Assembly (NCBI RefSeq): GCF_021223605.1
Contig: NZ_CP075175.1
Coordinates: forward strand, 5,101,501 to 5,165,500
Direction of reading: 5' to 3'
DNA length: 64,000 bases
Source of the DNA: Paenibacillus sp. 481
Lineage (GTDB): Bacteria > Bacillota > Bacilli > Paenibacillales > Paenibacillaceae
In this document: positions 5,392-64,000 of the stretch, in pieces
Layout: each line of letters begins with the position of its first letter
How positions within the stretch are numbered: the first letter of the stretch is position 1
The notes under the pieces: generated by a model
What the model saw: only the letters and a program-made list of their open reading frames with translations
What the model was told of the DNA's origin: nothing
Databases searched by the model: none
Translations under genes and position numbers: made by a program

Positions 5392-5410
5392 GGCTGCCAC
5401 AGGACAGCCC
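5391..5410. terminator. Short hairpin between convergent genes
   Basis: GGGCTG at 5391-5396 pairs with CAGCCC at 5405-5410 between the hydrolase stop and the MocR stop. There is no clear T-run on either side, so this is a weak bidirectional terminator candidate. Confidence 0.35.
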
Positions 5411-5414
5411 CCTA

Positions 5415-7085: not shown

Positions 7086-7243
7086 CGTAACATCCTCCTC
7101 TTCATAACGTCACCGCTGACGAAAAGTGTGAAATGCTCAACCTTGACAACAACAGCCTTGGCGATTAACTCTTTTAACTCTTCGCTACTATAAAAAACGA
7201 CCATACAAAGTAATATTCGGGATACGGCAAGGATGATGTGTTG

Positions 7244-12581: not shown

Positions 12582-12588
12582 CATCGCT

Positions 12589-39626: not shown

Positions 39627-42600
39627 AAGTGCTTGGTGCGCCGAGCGAATGCTGTAATCGCTCCATAATTTCGCTCCAATAATAGCCCAATTAGACGCTG
39701 AAGATGTTTTGGATACCCAGTTGGTTTTTCAGCTTCTAGCCTGTTGGCAATAACATAAATTCCTGAACACAAAACCTCCAAGTTAACATCAAATTTGGTT
39801 GGTTCTGTTAACTGCTCAATTGCCTCTTCAACAGAAAGGTTTTTCAATGTTTGATAAAATTCATTTTTCTCCTCATCACTGCTTAACACACCGCTCTCCG
39901 TGTCTTCGTACCACCTATTTGGAATACGATAACGATCTCGATTTCCCTGCACGTTATATTCTGCAGGGCCTAGCCCCTCTAGCTTATCACTTATAGAATT
40001 GATGCCATTCCGTTGAGCAGCAAGGCACAGTGCTTTTTTCAAATCCTGAAGATAGCAACGTTCATAACCGTCGTGCCAGTTTAGAGCACCTATTCCAAAG
40101 GACCAGATCGTAAGAAGATCGGTCTCGGAAGTCTCTATAGTTTCAAGTACAGAGATCAAGCCATCGAATATCATGTTGATGTTTTCCAAAAACGATTCTC
40201 TTACGTTTTGGGCATTCAGTAAACGCCACATAGCCGTAGGTCCTTCATAAACTACAGAACCAGCCACAACAGCTTCTACAAATATTGCAAGTCGATTGTC
40301 TCCTAGCTCTGATGCAACCTGGCAAATTTCGAGTAGTTGCTTCCCTTCATTTTCCCAGATTTCTGGTTCCAGTTTAGCAAGTTCCTTATACCAATCTTGC
40401 GGGCTCTCCAGTACGTACTCTTTGTGACCTGTGTAGCCGATCATGCCCCATTTTAGTAGCTGTCGTGCTCGCTTGGCTTCTTGTTGAAATCCAATTTCAG
40501 CAGCAAGATCAGAAATTCGATTCACGATGTCTACACGCTCTGCTACATCGTGATGCCAAGCCCTTCCTTCATCAGCACACCAGTGAAGGAACCAATGCTC
40601 CAATAATTCTTCTTCTCCCCGATCCCATAGATAGCGCCATGCAATTTCCATCATATAATTGACAGGGTAGGACTGGCTATATTCCTTCATGAACTGATAA
40701 ACTGTACGATCAGCTTCACCACCAATTAGTGAGGCACATTCGATAATAACCTCAACAATCCATTTTGTCGCTGGTTGATCTTTGTAAGCAGTTTCATTGA
40801 AGTTTCTTTTTTTGATTACTAATGCTTTAAGGACTAGCTTGACCTCATGCGATGAAACGATTCGTCCGGCTGCTTCTTCTCCTCTCCTCCTATAGGTACC
40901 TAGCCATTTCCCTGCAAGAGCACTACCGCGAAGCAGTGCCGATAAATGTCCTTTTGTGCGGCTATCTCTCCTTTTCACATAGTAAGCGGCGACACCTTCC
41001 TCTCCAATTCCACTATTTTCACGAGAAGGCTGCGTCCAACCCAAAACAAAACTTACCATACAGTAAAGAAGCACGTGATCCTCCAAGTGACGACTCGAAT
41101 CGATATTTTCGAGACACTTAAATCCCTCGTCTACTATTGGCTGAACCCAGAAATCGAATAGGTCTTTCCGTTCCGTGAAAAGGCTAAGTGCAGCGGCTTT
41201 AATTTGAAATGTATCTGGGAGCCTGTCACGTTTTCCTCCCCATTCTTTTAGGGTATATGCAATTTCAGGCCATCTTCTTTTTGATGCTAGCTGCAACAGG
41301 TTCTCTTCCATGTCACTAAAAAAAGTATAAACCGAAACTTGCCTAGACCAAATCCAATCTCTCAGATCACCATATTCTAATGATTCACTCATTACTCCAT
41401 TGGAGAAATGAGCCCATGCTTGACGATTCAATACATCTTCTGTCATATAAGATTCTTTCGATTCAGTCCAGAGCAAACCGACATGATAACTTACTTGCCC
41501 CCACACACGTAAAGTTGCCTGGAAGGTCTCATTCAAATGTTCGTAGTCAGTTATTTGATCAAACACATTGTCCTTCAGTATGCTTACAAGATCAATCGGT
41601 GTCATATCGAAGAACCAACGACGTATTAAACTATATGCTCGTTCCCTTTCATGTACCTGGATTAGACGATAAGCGTCAACCATCGTGAGATGTACTCCAT
41701 CTAGCGTCCATGCTTCCTTGTTAGGAACCCTACCTTCGGAAAAAAGAAGCGGTGGTACATCCGGTACATACTCGAAGCTACTACCCGTCCAGTCAACTGA
41801 CTTATGTAATTGCACGAGTGTTGCCGCAGCGCACGATACGGCATGGACACAATCCCAATCTCTTGTTTCAGCAACGTGTAGCAAAGCTTGTTGGCATTGT
41901 TCGTGCAATTCCCTTATCGGTCGTTCTAAAGCAATGCCTTCCATGACGTATTCTGGCATAAATACTCGTGCTTGATCCGAATGACGATCACTCTTTCTTA
42001 ATAAATCAAACAAGCTGGCATGTCTTGCAATCCCCTTGTCTGGAACCTTCCAATAGTAATTCGCAATTAGGCTTGCTACCTCACGAAGCCTTTCTGGTTG
42101 AGCATGTACTTGTTTTGTAAGGTGAACCCTAACATCGTTGTGAGTCACTCGAAAGCCATCATTCTCTTCAATTACCAATGGCCGAAGAGCACGCAGAGCC
42201 TCTGTCCAGTCAATGGGTGATATATTCATCACTTCCGCGAATATTATTGCCAAATCCTTACCTGTCACTCTCTCGTTTGCCAGAGAAAGACAGCTGGCCA
42301 AACGTTGCCCGACAAAGGGAAATCTGTCATCAAGACGAGCAACTGCTGCCAACCAAATGTTTTCATAGTACTCAGAGATACTATTCGTCAACCTTCGGTT
42401 TGTTAATTTAATTTGTAACTCATCTACATCGAGAAGCGACTTGGCCTCTTCAATAGCAAAAATGGCAGCCAGCGTATTTTCCTTTGAAACGTAATTAATT
42501 AATCTAACCGTTGCCTGAAATTGATCCACGGGCAACTCAGGGATCTCGGTAGCAAGAAGCTGTGAAATATCCTCTTCTTGAATACCTTCAACGATCCAGC

Positions 42601-43984
42601 GGGAAACTCCATACGAGCTTCCCTTTAGCCAAAATGGGTATTTGTCGTAGGAATTAGCAGGTTGTCCCACAATTAAGAAATGTACATGCTTCGGAACTGC
42701 ATCAGGTGGTATCAATGTTTCTAGGAAGGAGTGTTGATCGACACCAGCACGAGCTGCATGATCAATACCATCTATTGCGATGATCGTTGGTCGACCCCGC
42801 TCTTCTCCTAAAATGTTTGCTAGTCTCAAAACCTCAGAAATTAGCTGAACTAGGGTCAAAAAATCGTTTCTAATGGGAACATTATATCTTGCTAGGCGTC
42901 CTTTGAAGAAGAAGCTACGAAGTTCAATCAGCAAGTCTCCCCACAATACCTCGGCCTTCGTCGTTACGCCTGAATCGGCAGGCAACCTCTCCGTCTGAGG
43001 TGTTATTGGTTTAAATGCATGATACCGTAGATCAATAATTGGATCACGTCGGTTTGCCAATGCACTTACGACACTTGTTTTACCTTGACCAGGCATGCCA
43101 GTCAAGAATGTAATTGGATGAGAGCCTGACAACAAATGATTAGACAAATCCTCCAGAAACTTTAACCTGCTTGGAAAGAATGGTGCGGGAGGCAATAGCA
43201 TGTGTTCCCCTACAAGTTCTTGTGAACGCATGCTTAGTACTTCATATACTTCCTCGCGATGTATTGATTCTTTTTGGCCGCGAGACGTTGTCACCCATTT
43301 ACGCAGAGCATGATCGAGTTGGCTGAATATAGACCTTGCTTTCTCAGTTGATATCCCAAATGTGGTAGAGATCTTCTGCGTTACTTGGCTTGTTAGTTCT
43401 TCCAAATCGGGCTGTTCAGCCTTTATAACTAGCAGTTTGAGGAATTCTAATTTCTCATCGTCACTTGAGAGCCCACTTAGTTGGTCATTCCATTCGTTCC
43501 ATGCAACCAGCCATTGGACTGGCATCCGAACATCAGTAAGTTTAAAAGCTGTAGTGAGTTCTGACTGGAGATGTAAAAGGAACTGATCGAGTGCGGGTCT
43601 ATGGTACTCTACAGTATTGGAATCCTTCATTGTAGTTGATTTAGTACTAATTTTCCTATTGGAGAAAAGTACTGGTGAGCATTTCATCCATTTGCTTTTT
43701 AGTGTTGCCCATGCTTTGGACATACTTTTCAAAAGAGACAACATATTTCCGAAAGTTATTGTGTCCTCTGCACGAGTATGTTTGACTTGCACATACTCCG
43801 AGGTTCCGTCGGCATACACAATTACGACATCATCTAACCCTTGCGCTTCAGTCGCTTGCAAAATAACGTATTCGATTCTATTATCCGTATTAAGCATGTC
43901 GACCACATATTTTTGCCCAATAGTCCACTCGTACCAGTAGGGATCACCAATACCAGCTGTAGGATTTTTGTCATGTGTTGTCAT
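39587..43984 (-). CDS. Avs-like STAND NTPase with N-terminal Cap4/DUF4297-type nuclease
   Basis: A 1465-residue protein from ATG 43984, set by AAGGAGGGG. Residues ~1-230 resemble the Cap4/DUF4297 dsDNA endonuclease: QGLDDVVIVYADG (Asp51-52) and EYVQVKH (Gln-Val-Lys 66-68). A STAND NTPase follows with Walker A GMPGQGKTS (296-304) and Walker B TIIAIDGID (400-408), then a long helical repeat sensor. Avs proteins detect phage proteins through the C-terminal repeats, oligomerise and switch on the nuclease. The stop falls inside the next ORF. Confidence 0.82.
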   Translation of the reverse strand: MTTHDKNPTAGIGDPYWYEWTIGQKYVVDMLNTDNRIEYVILQATEAQGLDDVVIVYADGTSEYVQVKHTRAEDTITFGNMLSLLKSMSKAWATLKSKWMKCSPVLFSNRKISTKSTTMKDSNTVEYHRPALDQFLLHLQSELTTAFKLTDVRMPVQWLVAWNEWNDQLSGLSSDDEKLEFLKLLVIKAEQPDLEELTSQVTQKISTTFGISTEKARSIFSQLDHALRKWVTTSRGQKESIHREEVYEVLSMRSQELVGEHMLLPPAPFFPSRLKFLEDLSNHLLSGSHPITFLTGMPGQGKTSVVSALANRRDPIIDLRYHAFKPITPQTERLPADSGVTTKAEVLWGDLLIELRSFFFKGRLARYNVPIRNDFLTLVQLISEVLRLANILGEERGRPTIIAIDGIDHAARAGVDQHSFLETLIPPDAVPKHVHFLIVGQPANSYDKYPFWLKGSSYGVSRWIVEGIQEEDISQLLATEIPELPVDQFQATVRLINYVSKENTLAAIFAIEEAKSLLDVDELQIKLTNRRLTNSISEYYENIWLAAVARLDDRFPFVGQRLASCLSLANERVTGKDLAIIFAEVMNISPIDWTEALRALRPLVIEENDGFRVTHNDVRVHLTKQVHAQPERLREVASLIANYYWKVPDKGIARHASLFDLLRKSDRHSDQARVFMPEYVMEGIALERPIRELHEQCQQALLHVAETRDWDCVHAVSCAAATLVQLHKSVDWTGSSFEYVPDVPPLLFSEGRVPNKEAWTLDGVHLTMVDAYRLIQVHERERAYSLIRRWFFDMTPIDLVSILKDNVFDQITDYEHLNETFQATLRVWGQVSYHVGLLWTESKESYMTEDVLNRQAWAHFSNGVMSESLEYGDLRDWIWSRQVSVYTFFSDMEENLLQLASKRRWPEIAYTLKEWGGKRDRLPDTFQIKAAALSLFTERKDLFDFWVQPIVDEGFKCLENIDSSRHLEDHVLLYCMVSFVLGWTQPSRENSGIGEEGVAAYYVKRRDSRTKGHLSALLRGSALAGKWLGTYRRRGEEAAGRIVSSHEVKLVLKALVIKKRNFNETAYKDQPATKWIVEVIIECASLIGGEADRTVYQFMKEYSQSYPVNYMMEIAWRYLWDRGEEELLEHWFLHWCADEGRAWHHDVAERVDIVNRISDLAAEIGFQQEAKRARQLLKWGMIGYTGHKEYVLESPQDWYKELAKLEPEIWENEGKQLLEICQVASELGDNRLAIFVEAVVAGSVVYEGPTAMWRLLNAQNVRESFLENINMIFDGLISVLETIETSETDLLTIWSFGIGALNWHDGYERCYLQDLKKALCLAAQRNGINSISDKLEGLGPAEYNVQGNRDRYRIPNRWYEDTESGVLSSDEEKNEFYQTLKNLSVEEAIEQLTEPTKFDVNLEVLCSGIYVIANRLEAEKPTGYPKHLQRLIGLLLERNYGAITAFARRTKHLCLSYAITCGSNY

Positions 43985-44855
43985 AAGACCCCTCCTTGCA
44001 TTTTTTTCAAAGTTGTAAATACATGGAATATAAGGATATCGAGACAATAAGGTGTTTAGTTCTTACTCGCATCGCTACATTGTAAACAACCTCAACAACA
44101 AAATATAATCAATTCATATTTTTGCCCCATTTTCTGCGAGCAAGAAGATGTAGACTTACACGTTATAAGGAGAAAAGACAAAAAAGAAGAACTATCAGAA
44201 ATAATCCTCTACCGATTTCCATGTTTCTTCATTTTACTTAATCAATGCTAGTATTAAAATCCCGGAATAAATAGACATCTCTTAGTAACTTATATCTATA
44301 AACATCCCACAACTACTGCCTACTGCTCGTTACGTTTAATAGGAACAGGATCGTACATAAAAACACCTTCAATCGACAGTATTCTTCTAAAATTTTATCA
44401 TCATCAGAAATTTATGTAAATGACTCACGTCTTATGAGACATGTTTGTGTCATTAGAATTGTAAGATGGGTTTGTGTGACCAACCTCCTACTACAAACCT
44501 TAAACTAAATAATAAAATTAATTTTATTTTTGGCGTGTTGTACATGTAATCGTTCATTATTTTTGTCTAAAATCGTGTAGCGCATAGCCGAAACCGGCCC
44601 CATCGTCCAGCTCGGATCCGAGAACTTTGACTTACCTAACTTATTCTGTAGGTATTTCCCTATGCAATCCGTCGGAAGCTGTTTGCAACTGTCTCAGTCA
44701 CCGACCCCATTCATACCTTCCATTTCTTTTGACTCATAATATTATTCATTTAAATTCCCGAAAAAATGTTGTATATTTCCTATGTTCTAACAACTCAAAA
44801 ATTTTCGATTAATATCGTGCTACCATCGATCAAAACACTGGAAAGGATTATCCTA

Positions 44856-50758: not shown

Positions 50759-51792
50759 TTATTTTCCGTCCCATCCAGATTCAGCTATGATCCCTCGTAA
50801 GTCCTCTTGGGTCTCTAACCAATGTGTAATTCGTACCATCCGTACACAAATTCGCTTCCTTGAGTTGGCTGCCAAGGTCCAATTCCGGCCGGAAGCCGCT
50901 CCATCCATTGCAGGGTACAGTAAAACGGCTCTTCTAGCATCTGGGCATCCCGTCACGTAGGCGTACATCTGATAGATATCACCCTGCTGATACTTGGTAA
51001 TATCCTTCCATTTCGTATCCATTATTAAAGTCCAGACAAATTCCCCATTCACTTGCCGCTCTCCCAAGACAATATCGGGGATCAGCTGAATATTATCCAG
51101 ACCAGAGTCCTTATTTCTGAGTAGCTTAACCTCTTTATGCTGAATCCGAATTACCGCTTCTCTTCCTAATGTCATCTGCTGTAGGACACGGCCGACATAC
51201 ATCTCATAGAGCGAATGCACTTCGAACAAGAAGGAAAAACATTCCTCTTTCGCTCCCCTGTGTAGTACCAACATGTGGGATAGAATCAATTTTGCTAACC
51301 GGAAGGCTGGTTCAAATCTGGAGGTTTGTCGGTCAAAATGCACCTGATTGAGCAACTCTTTCACATCCCCTGGACCGTCCAATTCCTCAAAACACCCGCA
51401 TAGGTGCAGCAACTTTTTCCGGATTGAAGGATCCAACACCTTCCGCTTAAGGATTACCAAGGTTTTAAAAAAACAAAATTTAAAGGGATCGCAGGAGTCC
51501 TTTCATTGAAACTGCAATAAGCCCGTGACTTATCAGTTGCATTATACTGCAGGTGCTTCGTCACCATAAGCCGTCCCTTCAGGTGTTGGGAGTTTTCCTC
51601 CAGATCGACATAACCGGCCGCTAATCCCCGCTTTAACTGCCTCTGTAGCTCCATGCAGAAGGCGGCCGCGATCCAGCTCAACAAATCCGCGGCTACCACT
51701 TGAACAGCCGCCACGGCTGGCCCCATCTTGTATGGGATATAGCCGCATACACCAAGCATATTAAGAAGGGCCAACTTGTGCAGGGACAACAA
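50759..51792 (-). pseudogene. mcrC: McrC-like nuclease subunit, truncated and frameshifted
   Basis: The upstream frame (51792-51454) carries GLAAGYVDLEENSQHLKGRL and the downstream frame (51460-50759) the PD-(D/E)xK core LIPDIVLGE...WTLIMDTKWK and GDIYQMYAYVTG, both typical of McrC, the nuclease subunit of the methylation-dependent McrBC system. The frames join at a seven-T tract near 51467. The normal N-terminal ~100 residues are missing, and no mcrB is present. The module is therefore a relic, unless the T-tract is a sequencing error or phase-variable. The gap 50300-50758 shows no supported gene. Confidence 0.8.
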
Positions 51793-51797
51793 TTACT

Positions 51798-53825
51798 TTA
51801 TAGACTTTTGTCGATTTTTTGGAATGCTTTATTTGGTACCATAATCAAATTGTACTTTCCTTCTGGGAGTTCATTAACTACTTTTCGAGTATCGCTATCC
51901 TTAACTGTGATCCCTATAATTACTTGACTGTTACTTAAATTATTTACGATACTATTGAAGAACTCTTTCATGTCACTTACGATGATACTGTGTTGTGCTG
52001 GTTCATCAAAAATTAATGTACCTGGATGATTTCCTGAATCCATCAATGATGTCTGCAATAGAGACAGAGTAAAAGCCCAAATCGCTCGAATGTTATCACT
52101 TGCCGATGAATCAAATTTCATATCAAATCCTTCTATTGCCGGCAAATAATTTTCTTTTGAAATCTCTACCTGATTTAAATTCTTAATACTTCTATATCCG
52201 AACTTTTTTAAGTTATCTACTAAGCATTCTTGTAAATGCTTTAATTTAACTTTATCTTTTTCAGAATATTTATTCTCGGGTAATGCGGCTTTCTTCTCTA
52301 GATAATCCTTCCATCTCTCTGATAATTTTTCAAAGGTAACTTTATGATTTGAATAGAAATCAATTAATCTTTTTAGATTATTTATCTCGGATTCGATACT
52401 TAAACGTTTGTAGACAATCGCCTCTGAGAGACTATCATTAGTCTGGTATAGATCACTCCTTAATGATTTAGCCAAACTCCGCAGTTTATATAAACTCTCT
52501 TCCATATGATTAATGCTGTTTTGAATTTTATCTAAATTACTTCCATGACTTAACTTTGCAAACTTAAGCATGTCCCTCTGAGCATTTAGATGCCTTATGT
52601 TATCGTCTATATTCATAATGGGCATGTCATTCGGAAGCGGAAGTAATGTATCTGCGATTTCTTGATGGCAAGTTGGGCATAAATCTTTCGATGTATAGAG
52701 GTCTATCTCTGATCCAAGATCCCGGAGACGAGCAGCATCCTTATTATTACTAATGTCTGTCTCAATTATCTCGAGATTATTTTCTAATCGTCTGATACTA
52801 ATGTGTTCTTTATCTAAAAGATCACTAAGTTTAACTATATCCCATTCATATTCACGTATTGTCTTCTCAGTCTCGCTAAGTTCAATTTGAAGCTCGTCAA
52901 AGTTATCAATAATTTTAGGTTTTAAAGCATTTAAATCCTCGTAATCTTTGGTTAAGTCATTGATGTATTCACCAATGTGGTCGTTATTCTTTTGAATTAT
53001 TATTTTTGAATAATCTACATCAGTTAATATTTTTGGGGAAGGTGGTAGCCCAGTGATTGTACAGGACTCCCTTTCAACTAAAAGGATTATTTCTCTTACT
53101 ACTGTGGTCCAACTTTTTTTAATATGATCTTCTTCAGCTCGTAGTTGATCTTTTTTTCTATCATTATCTAGAGTATCCAAGTCTAAAATGAATTCTATTA
53201 CGCGTTTCTTAGACTCTTTTATTCCAAGTATCGGCATCCCAGAAAGAATATTCGCCCAACCATGCTTTTGTTCAATAAACATCCCTGAGAATATTAGCTG
53301 GAGGTACAATTTTCTAATGGCTTCATCTGAAGCAGGTACCATAGGTAATTCAATATGTAAGAATGTTTCTAAAAAGTTATGGAAACCCTTTTTATTGGTA
53401 GCAGCGTTAGGCATATGAACATACATATCATCCAACAGTGTATCCTGGCGGTGAATATTCTCCATGTCTGAGTAGTATACACTAATCAATCTGTTATCCC
53501 TATTTTCTATTTTAGCTGCTCTGAAAATAGTAATAACTTCTATACCATTAAAGATCTCCAAATATGCCCCCGATTCAAGTACTGGCCAGACATTCTCATC
53601 TTCTTCTATAACTGATTTAAAAGCTGCAGTTAGTACTTTTTCACCACGCCCACCAATAATCTCCTCAAATCCTAAGCAATAATAAATCATTGCAATGATC
53701 GAACTTTTACCACGAGTATTATCATCGCTAGCAATAAGATTTAGTCCAGAATAGAACCTTTCGTCAAAACCAAAAATCTTTTCTTTTGTCTTTATTTCAA
53801 TTCTTAATCTATTTATCTTCAACAT
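51798..53825 (-). CDS. ABC-3C system SMC/Rad50-like ATPase with zinc hook
   Basis: A 675-residue ATPase. An N-terminal P-loop variant (SDDNTRGKSSII, ~33-44) is followed by coiled coil with a CPTC zinc-hook motif (~385), second coil, and C-terminal Walker B TLIFDEPAQH. Rad50/SMC-like ATPases with CxxC hooks are the core of ABC three-component conflict systems, which sense invader nucleic acid and activate a linked effector. It overlaps the middle-component gene by 17 bases. No ribosome-site anomaly was seen. Confidence 0.85.
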   Translation of the reverse strand: MLKINRLRIEIKTKEKIFGFDERFYSGLNLIASDDNTRGKSSIIAMIYYCLGFEEIIGGRGEKVLTAAFKSVIEEDENVWPVLESGAYLEIFNGIEVITIFRAAKIENRDNRLISVYYSDMENIHRQDTLLDDMYVHMPNAATNKKGFHNFLETFLHIELPMVPASDEAIRKLYLQLIFSGMFIEQKHGWANILSGMPILGIKESKKRVIEFILDLDTLDNDRKKDQLRAEEDHIKKSWTTVVREIILLVERESCTITGLPPSPKILTDVDYSKIIIQKNNDHIGEYINDLTKDYEDLNALKPKIIDNFDELQIELSETEKTIREYEWDIVKLSDLLDKEHISIRRLENNLEIIETDISNNKDAARLRDLGSEIDLYTSKDLCPTCHQEIADTLLPLPNDMPIMNIDDNIRHLNAQRDMLKFAKLSHGSNLDKIQNSINHMEESLYKLRSLAKSLRSDLYQTNDSLSEAIVYKRLSIESEINNLKRLIDFYSNHKVTFEKLSERWKDYLEKKAALPENKYSEKDKVKLKHLQECLVDNLKKFGYRSIKNLNQVEISKENYLPAIEGFDMKFDSSASDNIRAIWAFTLSLLQTSLMDSGNHPGTLIFDEPAQHSIIVSDMKEFFNSIVNNLSNSQVIIGITVKDSDTRKVVNELPEGKYNLIMVPNKAFQKIDKSL

Positions 53826-54294
53826 TGGTGTACCTCCAGAATGTTGTGAGCTCTTTTATTCTTTCTTCTGTTAGTTTATTGGACAGCAAAAATAAATATT
53901 TCTTTTCAGAACTCAAAAGGCTTGAATCCTTCATAATTACTTTAGTGAATTCCTTTCCCTTCTTTGTAAGGCGAAACAAACCATTCTTCTGTTGATTGAA
54001 CAACCCTTCAGCAATTGCGTATTTTATTGCACGGTTTACCGCAGGATCAAACCTTACTACGGAATAGTTATTTGAGCTATTATTTACAAAGTCCCACAGC
54101 TTTCCCCTATCGCTCGTCGTACTCAAAGCAGTTGATACCATTTGCAATTTCATTAATGAACATCCACCGCGTGCGTTTAATTCCAAAATAAGACTAAGCT
54201 TAGCTAGCTTATAGCTAATACGGTAATTAAATGGAACAGCATCAGGCTTAGCATCAAAAATAATCTCTTCAGAGAGTACATAACTTTTGTCCAC
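53809..54294 (-). CDS. ABC-3C middle component, winged-helix protein
   Basis: A 161-residue protein with a winged-helix-like C-terminal half (NRAIKYAIAEGLFNQQKNGLFRLTKKGKEF, ~95-125). A small middle component between ATPase and effector genes is the mark of ABC-3C systems; it is thought to bridge ATPase and effector. Four bases separate it from the effector gene, and it overlaps the ATPase gene. Assignment is by context plus fold. Confidence 0.72.
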   Translation of the reverse strand: MDKSYVLSEEIIFDAKPDAVPFNYRISYKLAKLSLILELNARGGCSLMKLQMVSTALSTTSDRGKLWDFVNNSSNNYSVVRFDPAVNRAIKYAIAEGLFNQQKNGLFRLTKKGKEFTKVIMKDSSLLSSEKKYLFLLSNKLTEERIKELTTFWRYTNVEDK

Positions 54295-54298
54295 ATTC

Positions 54299-55252
54299 TC
54301 ACCTACCTTTGAATTGCATGGAGCAGTCAGCTAACCAGCCGCTTATTAGGTCCAACTTTAATTCCATGATTGAAGCTGCATTGAGATATTTAAATTGCTG
54401 CTCAAGCGTTTTCTGAAAATCATTAAGAATGTCGTTGAACACATTTGAATTCATTGAACTGTCTAAATTCAGTCTAGTTGTCATTTTTACTTGTTTCTTA
54501 TAAGACTGCTCTAGCATATGTATATCTTCGAAAACTTCCGGATATCCTTCACGAAGAACTCTAAGAATCTCTAGTCCTTTAATGTACGCTTCAATATACA
54601 TACTCACGAGGTCATTAAAATCTTCATCCGATTCATCAACTTCTCCCATTACAGCCTTTACTTTTCTTTTAATGTTTGCTGCCTTTTCCGAATCACATTT
54701 GGACCAATCAGGTTTGTTCACATGATATATCGCAAAATTCAGCTTAACATCTGTGATTGTAGTTCTAATAATCCGAGTAATTTCAACCTTGAAGTCTTCA
54801 GCTGTCTTAATTAAGATAGCAAAACCGTCATCAATATAATCATAATCTTTTGGGTTGTTTTTCTTCATAGCAAGTACTTCTTTCCTTTTCGTCTCCGCAT
54901 GTGCCACTATCCGTGAATCTTTATATTTCGGAATAACAAAGTGCCACTCCTTAATATTCAGTACTCCTAGATCTTTTAAGCGCTTTGCATATTGCAAAGA
55001 GACTAATTTATTAATATCCTTTGTCATTTTGTCTCTTAGATGATTATATAATTCATCATCTGAATACTCCCGTTCTGGACAATAGCATTGATAAACCCTT
55101 CCAGTTCGAGTAAACCCCTCAATCCCACCATCTCCACCATGAACTGCTGGGATATCAGTAAAATGTTCCTCATGATACTTCATTCTGAAACATGATTTGC
55201 ACAGTTCTTCCCATGCGTCACCAGTTAAGTAGCTATCAATAAAATCTAACAT
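54299..55252 (-). CDS. ABC-3C effector with PD-(D/E)xK-type nuclease domain
   Basis: A 317-residue protein. The N-terminal motif GGDGGIEGFTRTGRVYQCY with the preceding ELCKSCFRMKYHEEHF is typical of restriction-endonuclease-fold effectors (Asp...Glu...Gln-x-Tyr). The rest is helical and coiled-coil. In ABC-3C modules such a domain is the toxic effector, released or activated by the ATPase. Its ATG overlaps the TAA of the 70-residue upstream gene by one base. The usual Lys is not obvious (QCY). Confidence 0.75.
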   Translation of the reverse strand: MLDFIDSYLTGDAWEELCKSCFRMKYHEEHFTDIPAVHGGDGGIEGFTRTGRVYQCYCPEREYSDDELYNHLRDKMTKDINKLVSLQYAKRLKDLGVLNIKEWHFVIPKYKDSRIVAHAETKRKEVLAMKKNNPKDYDYIDDGFAILIKTAEDFKVEITRIIRTTITDVKLNFAIYHVNKPDWSKCDSEKAANIKRKVKAVMGEVDESDEDFNDLVSMYIEAYIKGLEILRVLREGYPEVFEDIHMLEQSYKKQVKMTTRLNLDSSMNSNVFNDILNDFQKTLEQQFKYLNAASIMELKLDLISGWLADCSMQFKGR

Positions 55253-55906: not shown

Positions 55907-56544
55907 TTAATCATTGCGCTTATACATAGTTATTTGGTCAGATACGATGCTATAGATGAATTTTTGACTATGTGCTGTGTTTAAGATATTATAATAGCTA
56001 ACTCTTAAATTAATTACAATCGCGTTCTGTGCTGTATTTGCTTTCTCCGCTTCTTCGATTATATATAATAAAATATCTCTCCAATTACCTTCGAAACGAA
56101 ACATGCTTTTATCGTAAATAGATAAATTAAATTCTTTTGTTTCACCAGCTCTTAGACTAACTATAGTATCAGTTGTGAAGAAGCAATCACTTAACATAAA
56201 GGCATCAAATCCACATATAATGCAGTTCCATTACCAACATTCGTGGCTCTAAATATAAAATGCTTTTCCTCATCTTTATAAACTTCTAGTGCTATTAATG
56301 GTCGAATACTTAACTCATGATCCTGCCTCTGTAATTCTAATGTTTTTGCTTGAAGCATGAACGTGTATATAACACCTGATAAAGCAAGTCCTGAAAATAG
56401 CGTATTTATTATTGCGAAAGAATTTCCATAGGTTCCCGTCTTATCCCATTCATCAAACCCCAAATATAGGAACAAGATACAAACAATATAAACACCAATA
56501 ATTCCAAATTAAATAAGTGCGGCTATCTTCATTGAATTTTTCAT
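55907..56544 (-). pseudogene. Small membrane protein (phage-abortive-infection-like), inactivated twice
   Basis: A ribosome site GGTGGAGAG precedes ATG 56544 and MKNSMKIAALI, then in-frame TAA at codon 12. The frame continues with a membrane helix, GFDEWDKTGTYGNSFAIINTLFSGLALSGVIYTFML and LELQRQDHEL, a common two-helix layout in small phage-response proteins. A one-base loss near 56190 (GATTTGATGCC) shifts the frame into MLSDCFFTTDTIVSLR to 55907. Restoring both sites gives one ~210-residue protein. The gap 55465-55906 contains only a short plus-strand protein-like relic (KNKDAHEWIRVEW...). Confidence 0.75.
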
Positions 56545-56721
56545 GTCTCTCCACCTTAAAAGAAATTTTACAAAAAAAATTGTGTAACCTTTCTATCCTT
56601 ACAGCTCAAGGGGATAAAAACACTAACCATAGGATAGTGTTTTTATAATTTTGGTCACAATCCCCCTTCCTACCTATTTCAAATGGTATTTACCTTTTCG
56701 ATGTAATATTTATTTAATTTA

Positions 56722-57525
56722 TTAATATGTTCGTTCTCCTATAAGAGATTTAGCCGTGTCATAGAGGTTATCATAATGAAGCAGCTCAATCTTTTGTTCA
56801 CTCATCATTCGTCGCTTAATACGATATGTTTGTTCATTAAAATCTTCCCGACGCCCTGCGACAACAGCATAATGCAATCGTGTCCTGTCAGGCTTCATAA
56901 ACTCTATCGGAAGTTGTTGTTCTGGGTTTTTGTACTTTAGTAACGTTTCATGGAAGGCTGTAAAGTATGTTTCGAGCCAATCATCCCAATCCCTTACTTG
57001 TTTAATCCCCTTCCTAAATGCATCGCCTAGTTGCCCATCAGCCATTGTTATTTTACCGTATCGTGCCTCAAGCTCAACAAATAAAAATTCGTAACCACTT
57101 GAATTTTTACCAATGATTAAGAAGTCAATTTGGAGTGTTGTTCCTAACTTGAGCTCTGGAAAGATGTATGCATCATGATGTCCGAAGTTGTAATTCCTCA
57201 ATATAGAGGCGATTATAAAATATGCTTTATTTTTACGTATCCAGTTTAATACAGTACGCTCCGGAGTTCCCGGACTATCTAGCATTTCATGGTACCTATT
57301 AGATAGTTCGTTAAGTTCTACTTCATTTTTCAAGTCTACTATATCCATGTAATGATTAGGGAACAGACTAATATGATGCCGAACTGCTTTCGGGTATTCT
57401 CTAAATAAGCTCTTGCGCACTTTAAATTCTCCCAGCCCATGTACAATTTCCTGATCCTTTAATTCCCCCCAAATTTTCAATTCATTTTTAGTTAGTTTCA
57501 TATAGTCTCGTTCACCAATGCTCAT
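56722..57525 (-). CDS. sduA: Shedu-type antiphage nuclease (DUF4263)
   Basis: A 267-residue protein. The C-terminal DUF4263 domain spans ~88-190: ERTVLNWIRKNKAYF, PELKLGTTLQIDFLII (Asp134) and YEFLFVELEARYGKI (Glu151/153), then KQVRDWDDWLETYF. Shedu is a single-gene defence protein whose PD-(D/E)xK domain cuts phage DNA. Here the third catalytic position reads E-L-E rather than E-L-K, so activity may differ. GAGAGGAAA lies ~11 bases before ATG. It stands alone between two decayed genes. Confidence 0.85.
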   Translation of the reverse strand: MSIGERDYMKLTKNELKIWGELKDQEIVHGLGEFKVRKSLFREYPKAVRHHISLFPNHYMDIVDLKNEVELNELSNRYHEMLDSPGTPERTVLNWIRKNKAYFIIASILRNYNFGHHDAYIFPELKLGTTLQIDFLIIGKNSSGYEFLFVELEARYGKITMADGQLGDAFRKGIKQVRDWDDWLETYFTAFHETLLKYKNPEQQLPIEFMKPDRTRLHYAVVAGRREDFNEQTYRIKRRMMSEQKIELLHYDNLYDTAKSLIGERTY

Positions 57526-57732
57526 GAATGCTATTTCCTCTCTTTCTATAAAATCCAGAACTGTAATTTCTTCTGCAGATACAATGACCGTTTTATTTTG
57601 ATAGCCTGGTCATTTTAAATAGTGCATTGTTGCGCTAAGATTCTTGTAGACCAGTAGGATGTTGATTTTTTATATTGTGCAGTTTCCATATTGGTACTTC
57701 AATCGAATTGTAGCGTCCCCGTCTGAAGCTTC

Positions 57733-59628
57733 TTAATCCCAAAGTCTCTTTTTAATACTCGCTCTAGAATCTTCCCGCTGAGCATCTCTATCATAGTAAC
57801 TAGAAGTTTCTTCAAGAACAGAACCCGTATAAGGATACTCAAAGTGTAATACCTTGGCCCAAGCGCGATATTTTTTTGCAAGTTCACGCTCTTGTTCTCC
57901 GCCTTCTCCTCGCGAATGAGTACCACGGGAGTTATACCCCTTTTTTTGTAAATCCTTTTGCAATTTCTGGGGATGCTATTCTATCCATTACTTCACAAAC
58001 TTCTCTGCAAGGCCACAAACCATTTTTATCGAGAGGAGCCCTAGCCAAAGTTGACCTAAACATTGATCCCCTATTACACTGCGCCCGTATTTTTGGCATA
58101 AATGTCTTGTTTCAATGAGCCAATCGGTGAGTGTTACTATATCAATTTTTCCGTTATTATTTGTCCCAGGGATAATTGAAATGTGATCTAAAAGACGATA
58201 TGCTGCAGACTTTAATGAAGTTTGTTGTACTTGATTTAGAAACTTTAATTCTGTAGGATCCTCTCCGTCATCATTTCGTTTATATACAGTGGCAACCATT
58301 TGAGCAAATAAAGTTGGTGACTTAGCTACTAGAGATTCAAGATTCCGGATCCCGTGCTCGTTATCATCGAGATCGATTACATGAATAAAGAAAAATTTAA
58401 GTCGAGCCATTTCCTCTAAACTAACATCAGTGCGACCATCAAGCGAATTCAGTGCTTTTGAAATATAGTAGCTTTCAAGTCCCCAATAAGATGTTGATTC
58501 TGAATCTACTGTTGCAACTTCGTATAGTAACTGTTTAAGACGGGATGTTTCAAGTTCATGAAAACTCCTTCGCACAGCATGGAAAGCTGCACGAGGACGT
58601 CGAACTTTTAAGAGATTATCAACTATTTCGGCTAGTTCATCAGGATTACGAAGCTCCCATGTAGGTACTACGTTCTTCCAGTATTCTGATCTATGATTCT
58701 CGCTATATTCACTCAAAAGCCGCCAAGTGGGAACTTGGAATGGTGCACATAGAAAAAGCCGTATTTGCTCGTCGGTAGACAACATATTGGCCGTCGCGCG
58801 CAGTACTTCAGTGCGAGACTCATCTTTAATAGTTAAAACAAAACCTTGTAAACATCGATTAGTCTCACCCAGAAGGTGCTCATCAACAGTAAGACATTGA
58901 TAAATGAAATTAATTTTATCTATTACTTCAGGTAGACAAGATGAAACATAATTACCAACAATCTCTGCTTCATTACTACTGGTGATTAACTTTTTCACTC
59001 CTTCGAAGCCAAGCTCAGTCCATATCTCATGCATGGCTTCTATACGCTTATCATTTATTCTATTCATAAGTAATTGATAATCGATATCTTCTTCGATCTC
59101 ATATAGCGAATCTTCCACCCATTGATTAGCAAATTGCCAAGCGTGACGAATAACTGGATTCTGAGGACGAAGCTTTTCATAAGCTTCACCAGCACAGTCA
59201 CGAGATAATTCATTGATTTTTCGGTGTTCTCTACGGCAGGTAAGGCAAAACTGGCGAATACGTTCACGCAACTTTGCTTTAGAGAGTTCATCTGCATATG
59301 CAAACTATTGATCGACTAAATTCCAAACGTTAATTCGATCTTCTTCCGGTATGTTTTGTATATATTTAACAAGATCACCAAGCGTATTCTCATTGTGATC
59401 ACTCCAAGCAATTAGAAGGTCTAAAGCTTTCCGATTGAATGCATACATCTCTTGAAAAGTAACGACATGACCAGCGCCTGATGCATCATCGCGCCAATTA
59501 GGTTTGTAACTATACATCCCCATTCGGGAGCCCGTTTTGATTTGACCGAACCTTGGCAGTGCACATTCCCCGGAGTTAAATGATTTGGATTTTTGCAGAG
59601 ATAACATAACGTACGACCCTTCTAACAC
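57733..59628 (-). pseudogene. Decayed C-terminal part of a large defence-like protein
   Basis: Three pieces form one decayed coding region: 59628-59305 (GSRMGMYSYKPNWRDDASGAG), in-frame TAG at 59305, a 427-codon piece to 57988, then two frameshifts (~58030 and in an A/G tract at ~57950) into HSRGEGGEQERELAKKYRAWA...EYPYTGSVLEETSSYYDRDA. The tail resembles C-termini of very large (>1000-residue) STAND- or NTPase-type defence proteins; that resemblance is from memory and uncertain. No NTPase motif remains. The N-terminal part is gone. Confidence 0.65.
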
Positions 59629-59713
59629 AAAGCTGATCCTTGCTTAATACGAAGTCCTTACTCTTGCCACTGGCATAGCAATTCTGAAATTGCCGTTCCA
59701 ATTAGTGTGTGTG

Positions 59714-60532
59714 CTAAATTAGCATATCAGATTCAACATTCCATAAGGGAATATCTATATTATTTGTTTCACTAGTTTTATTACTTTTTATTCCGTTGCA
59801 CGTCCAGCACAGTAATTGTAAATTTGTGGGGTCATTATTTCCATAATTTGAAATTGGTACAATGTGATCTATTGCGTACTTATTTTCTAGATTAATTGTC
59901 CCTGAAACGTCTTTTCTACAAATGGAGCACACGCCCTTATCACGATAAATTATAGCTCTCTCAAGCCATTTGGGCCAAGAGACTCTACGAATTTTCCCAT
60001 TAACAAAATGTTCAGGATTTTCTATCAATAAATCAATGTCTGATTCGATACATCCTGATATGTATTCATTGAAATCCCTTAGAAACTTTTTATTACTCAT
60101 AAACAGATGAAAGACTGTGTGTACAAGAGCGAGCACAGAATCATCCCAAGCATATCTAATCTCTTCATTAATTTCTAGATATTTAGAGCACTCTGCACAT
60201 TCACCACAGAAATTACATTCATTCAACAATTCAAAGTCTGGATGTTCTGATAATAGAAACCCCGCATCCTCCACGATCGTCGACTCTATACTAAAAACAT
60301 CTCTTTGATCAAAGTGTCTATCCGCATACCAGTGATGAAAGTTGAATACATAAAATATCCATTCATGCATAATAGTCCATTTATGTGGTCTAAATATCCT
60401 AGGTAGTATTTGATGTCTTGAATCTCTCCAAAATTCGGGTAGAAGCAAATTACTATTTTCATAGAATTCCGCGATTGTGGCTCCGGCCAACCAATATGAC
60501 TCCAGATACGCGAACGAAAAATGCTTAGACAT
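59714..60532 (-). CDS. HNH endonuclease coupled to the zinc-ribbon protein
   Basis: A 272-residue protein from ATG 60532, set by AAAGGTGAGG. The stop of the preceding gene overlaps it (TATGTCTAA). A zinc-finger cluster (CNFCGECAECSKY) lies mid-protein. The C-terminal HNH domain is CSICRKDVSG...AIDHIVPISNYGNNDPTNLQLLCWTCNGIKSNK. HNH nucleases nick or cut DNA with one metal ion. The N-terminal ~180 helical residues are unrecognised. Overlap with the 823-residue partner suggests a stable two-subunit machine. Confidence 0.85.
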   Translation of the reverse strand: MSKHFSFAYLESYWLAGATIAEFYENSNLLLPEFWRDSRHQILPRIFRPHKWTIMHEWIFYVFNFHHWYADRHFDQRDVFSIESTIVEDAGFLLSEHPDFELLNECNFCGECAECSKYLEINEEIRYAWDDSVLALVHTVFHLFMSNKKFLRDFNEYISGCIESDIDLLIENPEHFVNGKIRRVSWPKWLERAIIYRDKGVCSICRKDVSGTINLENKYAIDHIVPISNYGNNDPTNLQLLCWTCNGIKSNKTSETNNIDIPLWNVESDMLI

Positions 60533-62996
60533 ATTCCTCACCTTTAATATTGAGATAGTCATCTTCACAAGATAACGGATATAAATTAACACACCTAGGA
60601 CACCATTTGCCTTGTTGTATATTATTTGGCTTAGCTTCCCACTCGTGCCCATGAACACATTTCCACATTAGCTTGGTGTGTGCATTAATATATTCCGTAG
60701 ATAAACACTCTCCATTTCTTTTTCTGGCTAGTTCAATCATATCCTCAATGGATTTTCTCTGCTTAATTGAACTTTCATTTCTTCTACATATCGGGCACCA
60801 AGATCCTTGCTGAATGTTATTAGGATTGGCGAACCATTCATGACCTTCTTTACATTTCCAACGTAATTTTGTTTGACTGTTTACGTAGGTATCGGATATA
60901 CATATTCCATCATTTTTCTCCGCTAGCCTCTTCATATCTTTAATATTATTTCTTCTATACATACCAGAATTTTTAGAAGCACATGTAGGGCACCAAGTTC
61001 CGTTTTTCACACTATAGGGTGTAGACTCCCATTGGTGGCCCTCCCTGCATTCCCACCTAAGTTTAGTGTCAACATTATAATAAATTCGGGATAGGCATCT
61101 ACCTTCTCTTTGTTGAGCTAATTCTTTTAATACTTCTAGTTTGTCAATAGTTTTACGTTTTTTTTGATCTTCCTTACACTGGGGACACCATCTTCCTCTT
61201 TGGACATAATTAGGAGACGACTCCCATTGATGTCCAAGATCACATTTCCAAACTAATTTACTATCATTCCCACTATATATTACAGAAAGACACTCCCCAT
61301 CATATTTTGCTGCAATTTGTTTCATGTCATTTATTGTTTTTGAATTACATGATGGACACCACGAACCTTGCTGAATACTTCTAGTAGCTGCTTCCCACTG
61401 GTGTCCCATATGACATTCCCACAATAATGGTGTTTTATTATTACTATATTGGGTGGACAGGCACTTACCATTCTTACTTTTGGCCAATAAATGCATATCT
61501 TTAATGGTAATCGATCTACCAGAACACCTAGGACACCATGCTCCATTTGTAATACTTGAAGGTGTTGCATCCCAAACATGACCACTTTCACACTTCCATG
61601 TTAACTTTGTACTGTTATTTGTATATGAGTTTGATAAGCATTCCCCCCTTTTTTCTTGTGCGAGCATTTTCATATCTTCGATAGTTCTCCCTCGACCTAA
61701 GCACTGGGGACACCATGAGCCTTTTCTTATGTAGTATGGAGAGGCCTCCCACACATGTCCTTCTGAACATTCCCATTTTAATTTCTCATCACTCCCGTTG
61801 TACTCATTTGAAAAACAAATCCCATTTTTCAAACCAGCTAGAGCATGTAACTCATTTAATGGATTAAACCCTTTATAAAAACTTCTCCAATCTACGTCAG
61901 TATCCAAACTATCATATCCTAATTCCCATAATTTCTTCTGAAGAAATTCTACTTTATCCGTATCACTTACAACATTATATGGAATCACTATTAGATGTAT
62001 AGCGTTCTCCTTACAAAGCTTTTCCTTTTTTAGATCCCTTAACTGTTGTTCAAAAAAAAGTTCCTCACTTTGATTGTGAAAATAGGGAATATATGAATAG
62101 TGTTGTCTTCCATGGTATTCAAAAGCTAATCTAAGCTCCTCATTATATCCATCAAGTTCATAACCGTTTCTAAATTCTTTCCTTGTTTTAAGAAACTTTT
62201 TCTGTGTAAGAGATTCCAAAACAAATCTGCACTTCTCTTCATTGAAGAACACTGAGTTATTATTGCATTTTGGACAGCAACTACCTTTTTCAATTGAATA
62301 AGCTGTGGATATAAAATCGTGGCCATTAGTACATTTCCATAAAAGTGGATAATCAACATTAATGTACTTTTTAGAAAGACATTTCCCTCCTCTCCTACCT
62401 GCTAATTGTTTCATATCTTTAATTGATTTTTTATTGTTTCCAGCACAAACGGGACACCAAGATTTTTTGTTTAAAACACTATTTGGGGTTGCATCCCATA
62501 CATGACCTTCTTTACATTGCCATTTAAGCTTTCTAGTCATTGTAAAAAATTGAGTGGATAGACATTTACCGTTATGCTCCTTTGCAAAAGCCTGCATATC
62601 CATTAAACTCTTATTTCTACCCGCACATGTGGGGCACCATTTCCCCGAGTATATATTACTGGGGTATGCTTCCCACTGGTGCCCCTTAGAACATTCCCAT
62701 ACTAGCTTTGAATTCATATTTGAGTATTTGCTGAATATACATCTACCATGATTTCGTTCTGCTATAACTTGCATGTCTTGAATTGTTTTCCTTTTAGAGT
62801 TGGCATTTTTGGTATGAGCACACGACGGGCACCATTTTCCTCTTTTAATATTATTCGGGGTCGCTTCCCATTCATAACCACAATTACATCTCCACTTAAG
62901 TTTCGTATTACTATTCTTATATTCAATGGATAAGCATAATCCTTCTCTCTTTATAGCCAAATCTTTCATTTCATGTATCGATCCTTTAGCCGCCAT
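60525..62996 (-). CDS. Eleven-zinc-ribbon protein with an internal Vsr-like nuclease domain
   Basis: An 823-residue protein from ATG 62996, set by AAAGGTGATAAG. It has eleven ~65-residue repeats of the plan I-DM--LA--R-G-CLS--Y-N--TKL-WKC--GH-WEA-P--I--G-WCP-C (zinc-ribbon, DUF723/DUF4379-like). Four precede and seven follow a ~110-residue restriction-fold domain: ELDGYNEELRLAFEYHGRQHY ... KEKLCKENAIHLIVIPY, with Asp, Glu and a Gln-His typical of Vsr-like nucleases. Multiple zinc ribbons probably read DNA or RNA. The coupled HNH gene follows. I know no characterised system with this pair. Confidence 0.85.
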   Translation of the reverse strand: MAAKGSIHEMKDLAIKREGLCLSIEYKNSNTKLKWRCNCGYEWEATPNNIKRGKWCPSCAHTKNANSKRKTIQDMQVIAERNHGRCIFSKYSNMNSKLVWECSKGHQWEAYPSNIYSGKWCPTCAGRNKSLMDMQAFAKEHNGKCLSTQFFTMTRKLKWQCKEGHVWDATPNSVLNKKSWCPVCAGNNKKSIKDMKQLAGRRGGKCLSKKYINVDYPLLWKCTNGHDFISTAYSIEKGSCCPKCNNNSVFFNEEKCRFVLESLTQKKFLKTRKEFRNGYELDGYNEELRLAFEYHGRQHYSYIPYFHNQSEELFFEQQLRDLKKEKLCKENAIHLIVIPYNVVSDTDKVEFLQKKLWELGYDSLDTDVDWRSFYKGFNPLNELHALAGLKNGICFSNEYNGSDEKLKWECSEGHVWEASPYYIRKGSWCPQCLGRGRTIEDMKMLAQEKRGECLSNSYTNNSTKLTWKCESGHVWDATPSSITNGAWCPRCSGRSITIKDMHLLAKSKNGKCLSTQYSNNKTPLLWECHMGHQWEAATRSIQQGSWCPSCNSKTINDMKQIAAKYDGECLSVIYSGNDSKLVWKCDLGHQWESSPNYVQRGRWCPQCKEDQKKRKTIDKLEVLKELAQQREGRCLSRIYYNVDTKLRWECREGHQWESTPYSVKNGTWCPTCASKNSGMYRRNNIKDMKRLAEKNDGICISDTYVNSQTKLRWKCKEGHEWFANPNNIQQGSWCPICRRNESSIKQRKSIEDMIELARKRNGECLSTEYINAHTKLMWKCVHGHEWEAKPNNIQQGKWCPRCVNLYPLSCEDDYLNIKGEEYV

Positions 62997-63141
62997 CTTA
63001 TCACCTTTCTCTTCATCATCTTTATTCCGAAAAATAAACTGAAATAACCCGAATTTAATTGATATGAAAGGTTCAAACTTGATGATCATTATTGGTAAAC
63101 TATGAAAACTCATAATTACTCGTCACCAGTCGTAACAATAA

Positions 63142-63297
63142 CTTATTTTAGCAAGTGATTATGCTGCAGCAGTCTTGACTTCCAAACTTAGAGAAGATTC
63201 CAAATACTCTTCTGATGATAATGTTTATATTTACAACACGGAAACTGGCCAAATTGTCTGGAGTAAATGTATGAAGAAGTGGATAAAGAAAAATTAG
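63142..63297 (+). pseudogene. Short coding relic
   Basis: Between stops, the plus strand reads SKLREDSKYSSDDNVYIYNT...TGQIVWSKCMKKWIKKN to TAG 63295. There is no start. It looks like the 3' end of a small protein. The remaining bases to 63567 hold no gene signal. Confidence 0.35.
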
Positions 63298-63567
63298 TGC
63301 AAAAAATCAAACAAATATTAAAATTGATACTAATGATAATGAGATAAAGAATATGATAAAAATAATAATTAACTATGAATTACAAAACCTTCATTTAAAG
63401 TAAAGTTATTATTGTGGCTTAACTCAAATGGTTTCTACTTGTTATATGAGATTTATTTTATAATTTAAGTATATTATATAGACTAAAATTGTGATGATTG
63501 TTATGTATAAATTTTTTGACTTTGCTGAACCTATGGGAACAGGCACACATCTAAACGGCAATAGGAC

Positions 63568-63587
63568 TATGTTCTTGTCCCTCGACA
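63568..63587 (-). repeat. Candidate right transposon end
   Basis: On the minus strand the stretch reads TGTCGAGGGACAAGAAC, matching the left terminus TGTCGGATGACAAGAAG at 14 of 17 positions in inverted orientation. Only one such site is clear; a second is not convincing. Confidence 0.4.
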
Positions 63588-63660
63588 TGTAAGGCTAAGT
63601 CTACTTCAATAACTAAAACGGGCCTAAATCGGCTCTCTTCTTGACGTATGAGAGCAAAAG

Positions 63661-63690
63661 AAAAAGCACCACAAATGGGTGCTTTTATTT
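63661..63690. terminator. Rho-independent terminator
   Basis: AAAAGCACC and GGTGCTTTT pair with a 7-nt loop (63662-63686), followed by ATTT; AAAA on the left gives bidirectional potential. It would end the leftward gene at 63859. Confidence 0.8.
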
Positions 63691-63858
63691 GTTAGTAACA
63701 AGTAAACTATCATGCGCACATTACTAAATAATGGTTTATAGCATTGACTTCATGAGTAGCTACTACCTCGCTGCTGAACTGCATAGATCGATCTTTTTCA
63801 CGAGATTTATGTAGTTCGTAAAATGCAGGCTTATCTCCCTTACTATTGTCTTAACGAA

Positions 63859-64000
63859 TTACTGCACCCAATTCTCCAACTCGTAATGATCGTCAAACGA
63901 TTGCGCTTGCTTGGAGCCCGACTCGATAAGCTGCTGTCGATTAGCTTCAAGCAGCCGATCAATTACGTCATCGGCAATACGCAATTTGCGCAGCGTGTTA
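63859..64000 (-). CDS. 3' end of a leftward gene (truncated by window)
   Basis: The minus strand is open from the right edge and ends with LRKLRIADDVIDRLLEANRQ ... FDDHYELENWVQ and TAA at 63859-63861. The 46 visible residues are helical, and codon use looks like the left flank, not the island. It is probably chromosomal, and the terminator at 63661-63690 could serve it. The family cannot be named from this piece. Confidence 0.55.
   Translation of the reverse strand, partial: NTLRKLRIADDVIDRLLEANRQQLIESGSKQAQSFDDHYELENWVQ

Follow-up and report, generated by a model that had tools for sequence, protein, structure and literature searches.

Zinc-ribbon repeats of the CapR, DUF4379 and DUF723 families occur together with EDxHD/Vsr-type nuclease domains in a large, unrecognised outgroup of homing endonucleases carried by phage group II introns; in the passages that deal with these proteins, three to five repeats, proposed to act as DNA readers, are followed by a C-terminal nuclease (PMC12350094). 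CapR/DUF723 zinc arrays are also found in T5orf172 (GIY-YIG) homing endonucleases, whose modules are argued to set the target jointly and to be exchanged by recombination; the sections concerned further discuss the domestication of homing nucleases against satellites, with CapR as a satellite repressor, and describe no per-repeat specificity positions (PMC10448857). Hef of phage U5 is a characterised endonuclease, according to the portion of its report drawn on here (PMC2988022). We analysed a 64,000-nucleotide stretch of the genome of Paenibacillus sp. 481 (assembly GCF_021223605.1, contig NZ_CP075175.1, positions 5,101,501 to 5,165,500; hereafter the window), in which one gene encodes an 823-residue protein with eleven zinc repeats arranged around a Vsr-like nuclease core.

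The domain combination is already known, because PMC12350094 describes it, and on its sequence the protein belongs to that outgroup, with a central nuclease and more repeats. Both unite the same repeat families and the same kind of nuclease domain in a single protein; whereas the passages on the published proteins place them within introns, the Paenibacillus gene encodes four repeats, a central nuclease and seven further repeats, and is free-standing on the chromosome in a defence island. With the T5orf172 proteins it shares multiple zinc repeats and a proposed joint choice of target, but not the nuclease fold. What is new here, judging from the alignments, is the repeat-by-repeat conservation of seven positions between the window protein and an orthologue. 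We consider it probable, at roughly two chances in three, that the protein is a site-specific endonuclease of homing lineage, possibly one domesticated against mobile DNA. Each repeat would read a short DNA subsite through columns 23, 24, 40, 42, 43, 46 and 48, the string of repeats would set a long target, and the core would cut within or beside it; more speculatively, the protein may now serve as an accessory nuclease of the defence island, cutting a particular sequence in an invading plasmid or phage. The first-pass annotation of the window, which had proposed a multi-zinc-finger reader guiding two nucleases, was largely right in what it observed and is confirmed in part.

Repeat arrays and nuclease core

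The zinc-repeat open reading frame (Table 1) begins at an ATG preceded by GAGAAAGGTGATAAG. Pfam reports eleven stretches of DUF4379 (PF14311; whole-protein E 3.4e-62, 206.9 bits against a curated cut-off of 24.5) together with CapR (PF21817; E 7.8e-34, 116.1 bits against 24.2), and a regular expression recovers the same eleven units, four N-terminal and seven C-terminal to the core. The count of eleven zinc ribbons made from the bare sequence is thereby borne out, while DUF723, the other family named at that time, is not reported by Pfam at E<=0.01. The 5.69-Mb genome contains eleven PF14311 matches, all within this gene. Each repeat occupies 53 columns with, by eye, the consensus IxDMxxLAxxxxGxCLSxxYxNxxTKLxWxCxxGHxWxAxPxxIxxGxWCPxC and a C-H-C-C zinc set. 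Searches of the whole protein returned no PADLOC family at E<=0.01 and only chance matches among PDB sequences.

EDxHD/Vsr-type homing endonucleases carry a catalytic signature of E, D, H and D, which is present in the window core as judged on the motif alone. Alignment of 17 cores shows E253, D282, E293 and K324 in all of them and D321 in 16; H299 is found in the window core and the 11 cores most similar to it, and five Clostridia-type cores have a W/Y-H at a different placement instead. The whole protein also matches PHROG families of homing endonucleases (phrog_9084, 1.7e-9) and intron encoded nucleases (phrog_7140, 1e-5). It is for these reasons, the motif, the PHROG families and the published description of such proteins, that we use the label Vsr-like. 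Against it stand the core's lack of any Pfam family at E<=1 when searched on its own, and a core profile that finds only chance chains in the PDB. The PD-(D/E)xK-like or Vsr-like domain first noted amid the repeats is therefore supported by its conserved residues and PHROG matches, and not by a Pfam or PDB match of the core. We regard the protein as a probable DNA-cutting enzyme.

Conservation of seven repeat columns

TALE arrays present a few hypervariable positions on a conserved repeat scaffold. The Paenibacillus array is similar in being a string of repeats of this kind, and differs in its unrelated fold, its 53-column repeat with seven candidate positions, and the lack of a known code. 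The candidate positions came from comparison with an 867-residue collinear orthologue, G1217 (L113:8156-10759, minus strand), which has 5+7 repeats around its core and is 50% identical to the window protein in one alignment of 803 columns. Orthologous repeats, 11 pairs in all, were compared with shuffled pairings (20,000 shuffles). At the seven columns, 43 of 77 residues match where about 17 are expected. Columns 40, 42, 43, 46 and 48 contribute 30 of 55 matches against 12.7 expected, a value reached in none of the 20,000 shuffles, and columns 23 and 24 contribute 13 of 22 against 3.9 (p ~1e-4). By contrast, the remaining 16 variable columns in these repeats match in 22 of 176 cases, with 22.3 expected (p 0.56).

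Since the seven columns were drawn from these very data, we turned to other sets. In Campylobacter phage, genes of the zinc-repeat family lie at six or seven loci of a single phage record, in arrays of up to 9 detected repeats on a nearly constant scaffold. Among 50 such repeats in 13 groups, collected by regular expression, the equivalents of columns 40, 42, 43, 46 and 48 show entropies of 2.57-3.54, where the median of the other core columns is 1.8 (Mann-Whitney p 6e-4 to 7e-4); when the equivalents of 23 and 24 are added and the comparison is with non-scaffold columns, p is 0.0018. With the window and G1217 excluded (83 repeats), covariation among the seven columns exceeds that in sevens drawn at random from the 23 variable columns (p 0.017, or 0.022 for non-adjacent pairs). 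The protein of a Priestia plasmid (L067) behaves differently from G1217 when compared with the window: its 16 background columns are conserved (26 of 112 against 17.0 expected, p 1e-4), as are columns 23 and 24 (6 of 14 against 2.2, p 0.008), whereas the five columns reach 13 of 35 against 8.3 (p 0.046). Such drift of the five columns over a retained background is as expected for a partly different target. Between L067 and G1217, background columns match in 21 of 112 cases (p 0.08) and columns 23 and 24 in 4 of 14 (p 0.03).

An unlikely alternative is that this conservation is structural or ancestral, the columns contacting a neighbouring repeat or a linker and having no part in specificity. 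The post hoc choice of columns, the closeness in sequence of several of the seven, and a signal at column 4 (p 0.018), which was left out of the set, would all fit such an explanation; the lack of signal at the 16 other variable columns, the high variability of the five positions in the phage paralogues and their drift in L067 while background was conserved argue the other way.

Several further results weigh on the side of caution over a specificity role. Considered one at a time, columns 40 and 43 give weak (p 0.06) and marginal (0.04) signals respectively, and column 45, at p 0.06, was counted as background. Column equivalence between the window and Campylobacter-phage repeats was set by eye, and variability equal to that of the five is also seen in the phage set at column 51 and several further columns. 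The five columns match in only 8 of 35 cases between L067 and G1217 (6.0 expected, p 0.24), and in the pairs L057/L114, L180/L183 and L180/L186 they are not conserved repeat by repeat. Two other pairs, L119/L121 and L068/L069, conserve background and candidate columns alike and so do not discriminate. The window and G1217 are the only moderately diverged pair with a long array that was found; scans of viral contigs, which returned 2, 46, 0 and 30 loci, gave no further diverged long-array pair.

We also think it quite improbable that the array recognises RNA, or DNA that is modified or structured, in place of DNA sequence. Zinc ribbons of several families bind RNA, and modified or structured phage DNA was the substrate first suggested, tentatively, for this protein; on the opposite side, the homing relatives act on DNA, and CapR, the nearest studied domain, is reported in the sections that treat it as a DNA-binding zinc finger (PMC10448857).

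We thus regard the seven columns as candidates for the residues that give a modular DNA reader its specificity; in the parts of the open-access PMC literature consulted, no description of specificity positions in DUF4379/CapR repeats was found. A broader proposal, which we advance tentatively and at less than even odds, is that DUF4379/CapR repeats form a decipherable modular DNA-recognition system in which the seven positions specify the subsite, repeats are added, lost or exchanged to retarget the nuclease, and the island-borne forms with a central nuclease act as protein-guided, sequence-specific interference nucleases against mobile DNA. Should the seven positions indeed determine specificity, this widespread family would take its place beside TALEs and C2H2 fingers among the modular DNA readers, and the targets of many phage homing genes could be predicted; the island forms would exemplify homing endonucleases converted into sequence-specific nucleases directed at mobile DNA. 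The hypothesis points to particular residues and could be tested with a single purified protein.

Homing relatives and defence neighbours

Matches to the zinc-repeat protein at E<=1e-5 occur in 496 of 50,697 phage records, some of them annotated as homing endonucleases, and in 74 of 72,556 plasmid records; archaeal genomes carry relatives too. Spread among related bacteria is patchy: at E<=1e-20 relatives were found in 3 of the 392 genomes from the order and 4 of the 398 from the class, and at E<=1e-25 in 1 of the 398 from the phylum, the own genome included each time, and three families gave 2/131, 1/39 and 1/17, each including the genome on which it was centred. Across phages, plasmids, bacteria and archaea, proteins with up to 13 repeats are seen; in bacteria and archaea the core profile reveals central-nuclease layouts of 4+3 (L026, L028, L067), 4+2 (L034), 3+5 (L038), 4+9 (L039) and 4+4 (L044). 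The L034 locus, from a Micrarchaeota metagenome-assembled genome, holds two adjacent zinc-repeat genes (4813-7752), each with a core of its own (4+2 and 2+1 repeats). Five other loci (L043, L047, L071, L072, L073), three of them on plasmids, encode five-repeat proteins in which the core profile detects no nuclease; these are possible CapR-like DNA-binding regulators.

Free-standing phage relatives, called Hef-like or homing endonuclease in some records, give strong matches over the repeats (phrog_559, named 'HNH endonuclease', 7.8e-124; phrog_681, named 'endonuclease', 2.1e-104). Unlike the window protein, those at L076-L080 have a nuclease core and no repeats after it; the core profile detects no nuclease in L074 and L075 or in many further loci. 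Of the seven phage loci fetched (L074-L080), five lie beside or between topoisomerase (L077), gp32 (L074), anaerobic ribonucleotide reductase (L075) or pieces of terminase (L079) or ribonucleotide-reductase genes (L080); an RNA polymerase subunit neighbours L078, and L076 is without annotation. In Lactococcus phage AM8 (L080, 2863-4730), two array reading frames adjoin the interrupted ribonucleotide-reductase genes, and their four repeats are alike at every model column compared.

These positions are typical homing sites, and they lend weight to the main functional rival of our favoured reading, namely that the protein is a still-selfish homing endonuclease which cuts its own empty site and spreads by repair, defence islands being mere insertion hot spots. 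The patchy spread would fit, as would two Campylobacter-phage genes at one locus with 5 and 9 repeats (L119, 2486-4126; L121, 2495-4735), of which the first three repeats are nearly identical and the fourth looks chimeric. Broken-looking copies, as expected for homing genes, point in the same direction: the L068 copy is split over two frames, L070 over several open reading frames, and in G554 a stop lies inside one array match. Moreover, flanks are common to L054, L057 and L058, which are close relatives lacking a clear central nuclease, so that an argument from unrelated contexts is not general. On the other hand, the window and G1217, and likewise L068 and L069, share the gene without clear flanks and keep the putative specificity residues in unrelated contexts, which tells against simple homing bound to one site and in favour of a target that lies elsewhere. 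In the L068/L069 pair, from two plasmids, the gene is a block of about 1.6 kb (11473-13100 and 11877-13509), 87% identical, with flanks otherwise unrelated save perhaps slight similarity just upstream; no target duplication was seen by eye at the block ends, and words shared by the outer flanks are no longer than in shuffles. The same is true of the longest words shared by the flanks of the window, G1217 and L067, a null that also fails to yield a target for the reading we prefer. A search for an empty insertion site in 18 other genomes of the genus gave only 150-bp and 37-bp matches to 56500-64000. The unrelated contexts, together with the defence-gene neighbours described below, leave selfish homing, in our view, a possible but doubtful account.

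Defence genes were sought with PADLOC at nine loci, comprising the window, two Bacillaceae plasmids (L067, L069) and six genomes of the same order or class (L092, L094, L108, L109, L110, L113). Counted neighbours were Shedu and Lamassu in the window, a Type III restriction enzyme in L067, a Type I restriction system and HEC-06/Orf5 in L092, Ppl and DndF/G/H in L108, and Drt2 in L113, giving at least five of nine loci against none of nine random regions as judged (one-sided Fisher p 0.015; with the window left out, 4 of 8, p 0.029). PD-T4-6/mad6 matches of two positive-set members were not counted, one of the two being a kinase-like neighbour in L094 that matches PD-T4-6 models and was taken as generic. 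The nine control regions, one per genome, were the first of 18 drawn (two per genome), of which one unused region, in G554, overlapped a positive locus. Their 117 proteins match five PADLOC families at best 8.9e-29 (mad2 in three members; LeoBC, LeoA, QatD and DpdF in one each), judged generic by name; the 66 neighbours of zinc-repeat loci match 130 families at E<=1e-20, the counts being read among the matches listed (25 of the 130).

The case for defence is limited by that scope, as by other features of the comparison. The controls are random chromosome, a lenient standard compared with other accessory DNA. Four of the nine loci (L069, L094, L109, L110) have no counted defence gene. Loci outside the count include L068 (a near copy of L069), L093 (a 5.2-kb contig), the plasmid loci L070-L073, and archaeal, Clostridia-type and other loci (L034, L035, L038, L039, L044, L061, L064), and their surroundings are by eye mostly housekeeping or mobile. 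Location in defence islands is thus upheld for the window, where Lamassu and Shedu lie downstream and an nSTAND3 gene upstream, and for the family only in part.

The HNH gene and the surrounding island

The gene downstream of the zinc-repeat gene encodes a 272-residue protein with an HNH domain and a cysteine cluster of its own, as had been noted (Table 1). It starts at an ATG (60532) behind GGTGAGG, and a GTG start at 60658 is merely that of the mechanical reading frame. The earlier description of the two genes as translationally fused is incorrect, for the HNH gene is a separate reading frame and the two overlap by 8 nt only, the upstream stop lying within the overlap; translational coupling is plausible from this arrangement. 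The HNH protein matches the HNH regions of several PADLOC models (best PtuB, 2.9e-7) and, weakly, 5-methylcytosine-specific restriction enzyme A in the PDB (6ghc, 0.0025).

Table 1 Features of the zinc-repeat locus and its neighbours in the window
Feature	Position	Strand	Basis
Zinc-repeat/Vsr-like nuclease gene, 823 aa	60525..62996	-	Open reading frame, Pfam, regular expression
N-terminal array, DUF4379 repeats 1-4 (residues 7-244)	62265..62978	-	Pfam, regular expression
Vsr/EDxHD-like nuclease core (residues ~247-366; E253, D282, E293, H299, D321, K324)	61899..62258	-	Motif, PHROG
C-terminal array, DUF4379 repeats 5-11 (residues 380-802)	60591..61859	-	Pfam, regular expression
8-nt overlap ATGTCTAA of zinc-repeat and HNH genes	60525..60532	-	
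HNH nuclease gene, 272 aa; considered a neighbour independent of the zinc-repeat gene	59714..60532	-	Pfam, homologue searches
C-x2-C-x2-C-x2-C cluster of HNH protein, retained in only some homologues	60188..60217	-	
HNH domain PF01844, E 5.3e-10	59777..59929	-	Pfam
Shedu SduA	56722..57525	-	Pfam, PADLOC
Lamassu LmuB, LmuC, LmuA	51798..55252	-	PADLOC
3' end of 1323-aa nSTAND3 protein with LmuA-like N-terminus, upstream neighbour, running past the window	63859..64000	-	

The first-pass annotation joined the two genes in one defence system, naming rare adjacency elsewhere as the finding that would count against it, and rare adjacency is what we observe. Within the order, HNH homologues (E<=1e-6) are present in 16 of the 392 genomes, own included, three of them as short HNH-domain matches. 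A zinc motif was found near none of the 15 other loci, in reading frames of the flanking ~1.5 kb per side (less for one short contig), and in 11 of these, most with several kb per side, there was neither a zinc-repeat homologue nor, among the neighbours compared, a common partner. Some HNH neighbourhoods have defence genes of their own (Avs3a twice, HamA and HamB once each, in 99 neighbours of 10 loci, among the matches listed, 25 of 74 families). Conversely, the HNH protein was absent at E<=0.001 from all 16 genomes or records selected for carrying zinc-repeat relatives, G1217 included; several of these are drafts or metagenome-assembled genomes, and a nearly identical query gave matches in the order-wide search. 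No HNH homologue lies within ~8 kb of the G1217 gene, and none was found in the zinc-repeat loci searched. Since HNH genes thus occur without arrays nearby and zinc-repeat genomes without the HNH gene, we consider the two independent, and reject the pair as a two-gene defence system. The 8-nt overlap and the common island in this genome would suit a protein that guides both its own core and an HNH partner as one conserved system, but given 0 of 16, 0 of 15 and the orthologue without HNH we judge this very improbable. In this genome the HNH gene seems to encode an accessory nuclease in its own right that has come to lie beside the zinc-repeat gene; of the proposed reader guiding two nucleases, the multi-zinc-finger reader fits the repeat-by-repeat conservation, and the HNH partner falls away.

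Elsewhere in the island, the stretch between Shedu and the HNH gene holds two genes (57988-59271 and 59305-59628) that have no Pfam match at E<=0.01, and the 427-residue protein of the two matches phrog_18693 (function not known; 1.1e-40). A McrBC-component protein (50759-51460; PF10117, 6.1e-31) adjoins the Lamassu genes. At 39587-44047, a 1486-residue protein has an N-terminus resembling both LmuA (2.6e-10) and SAVED/PD-D/ExK effectors (1.4e-7), and is perhaps another large effector like the nSTAND3 protein upstream of the zinc-repeat gene.

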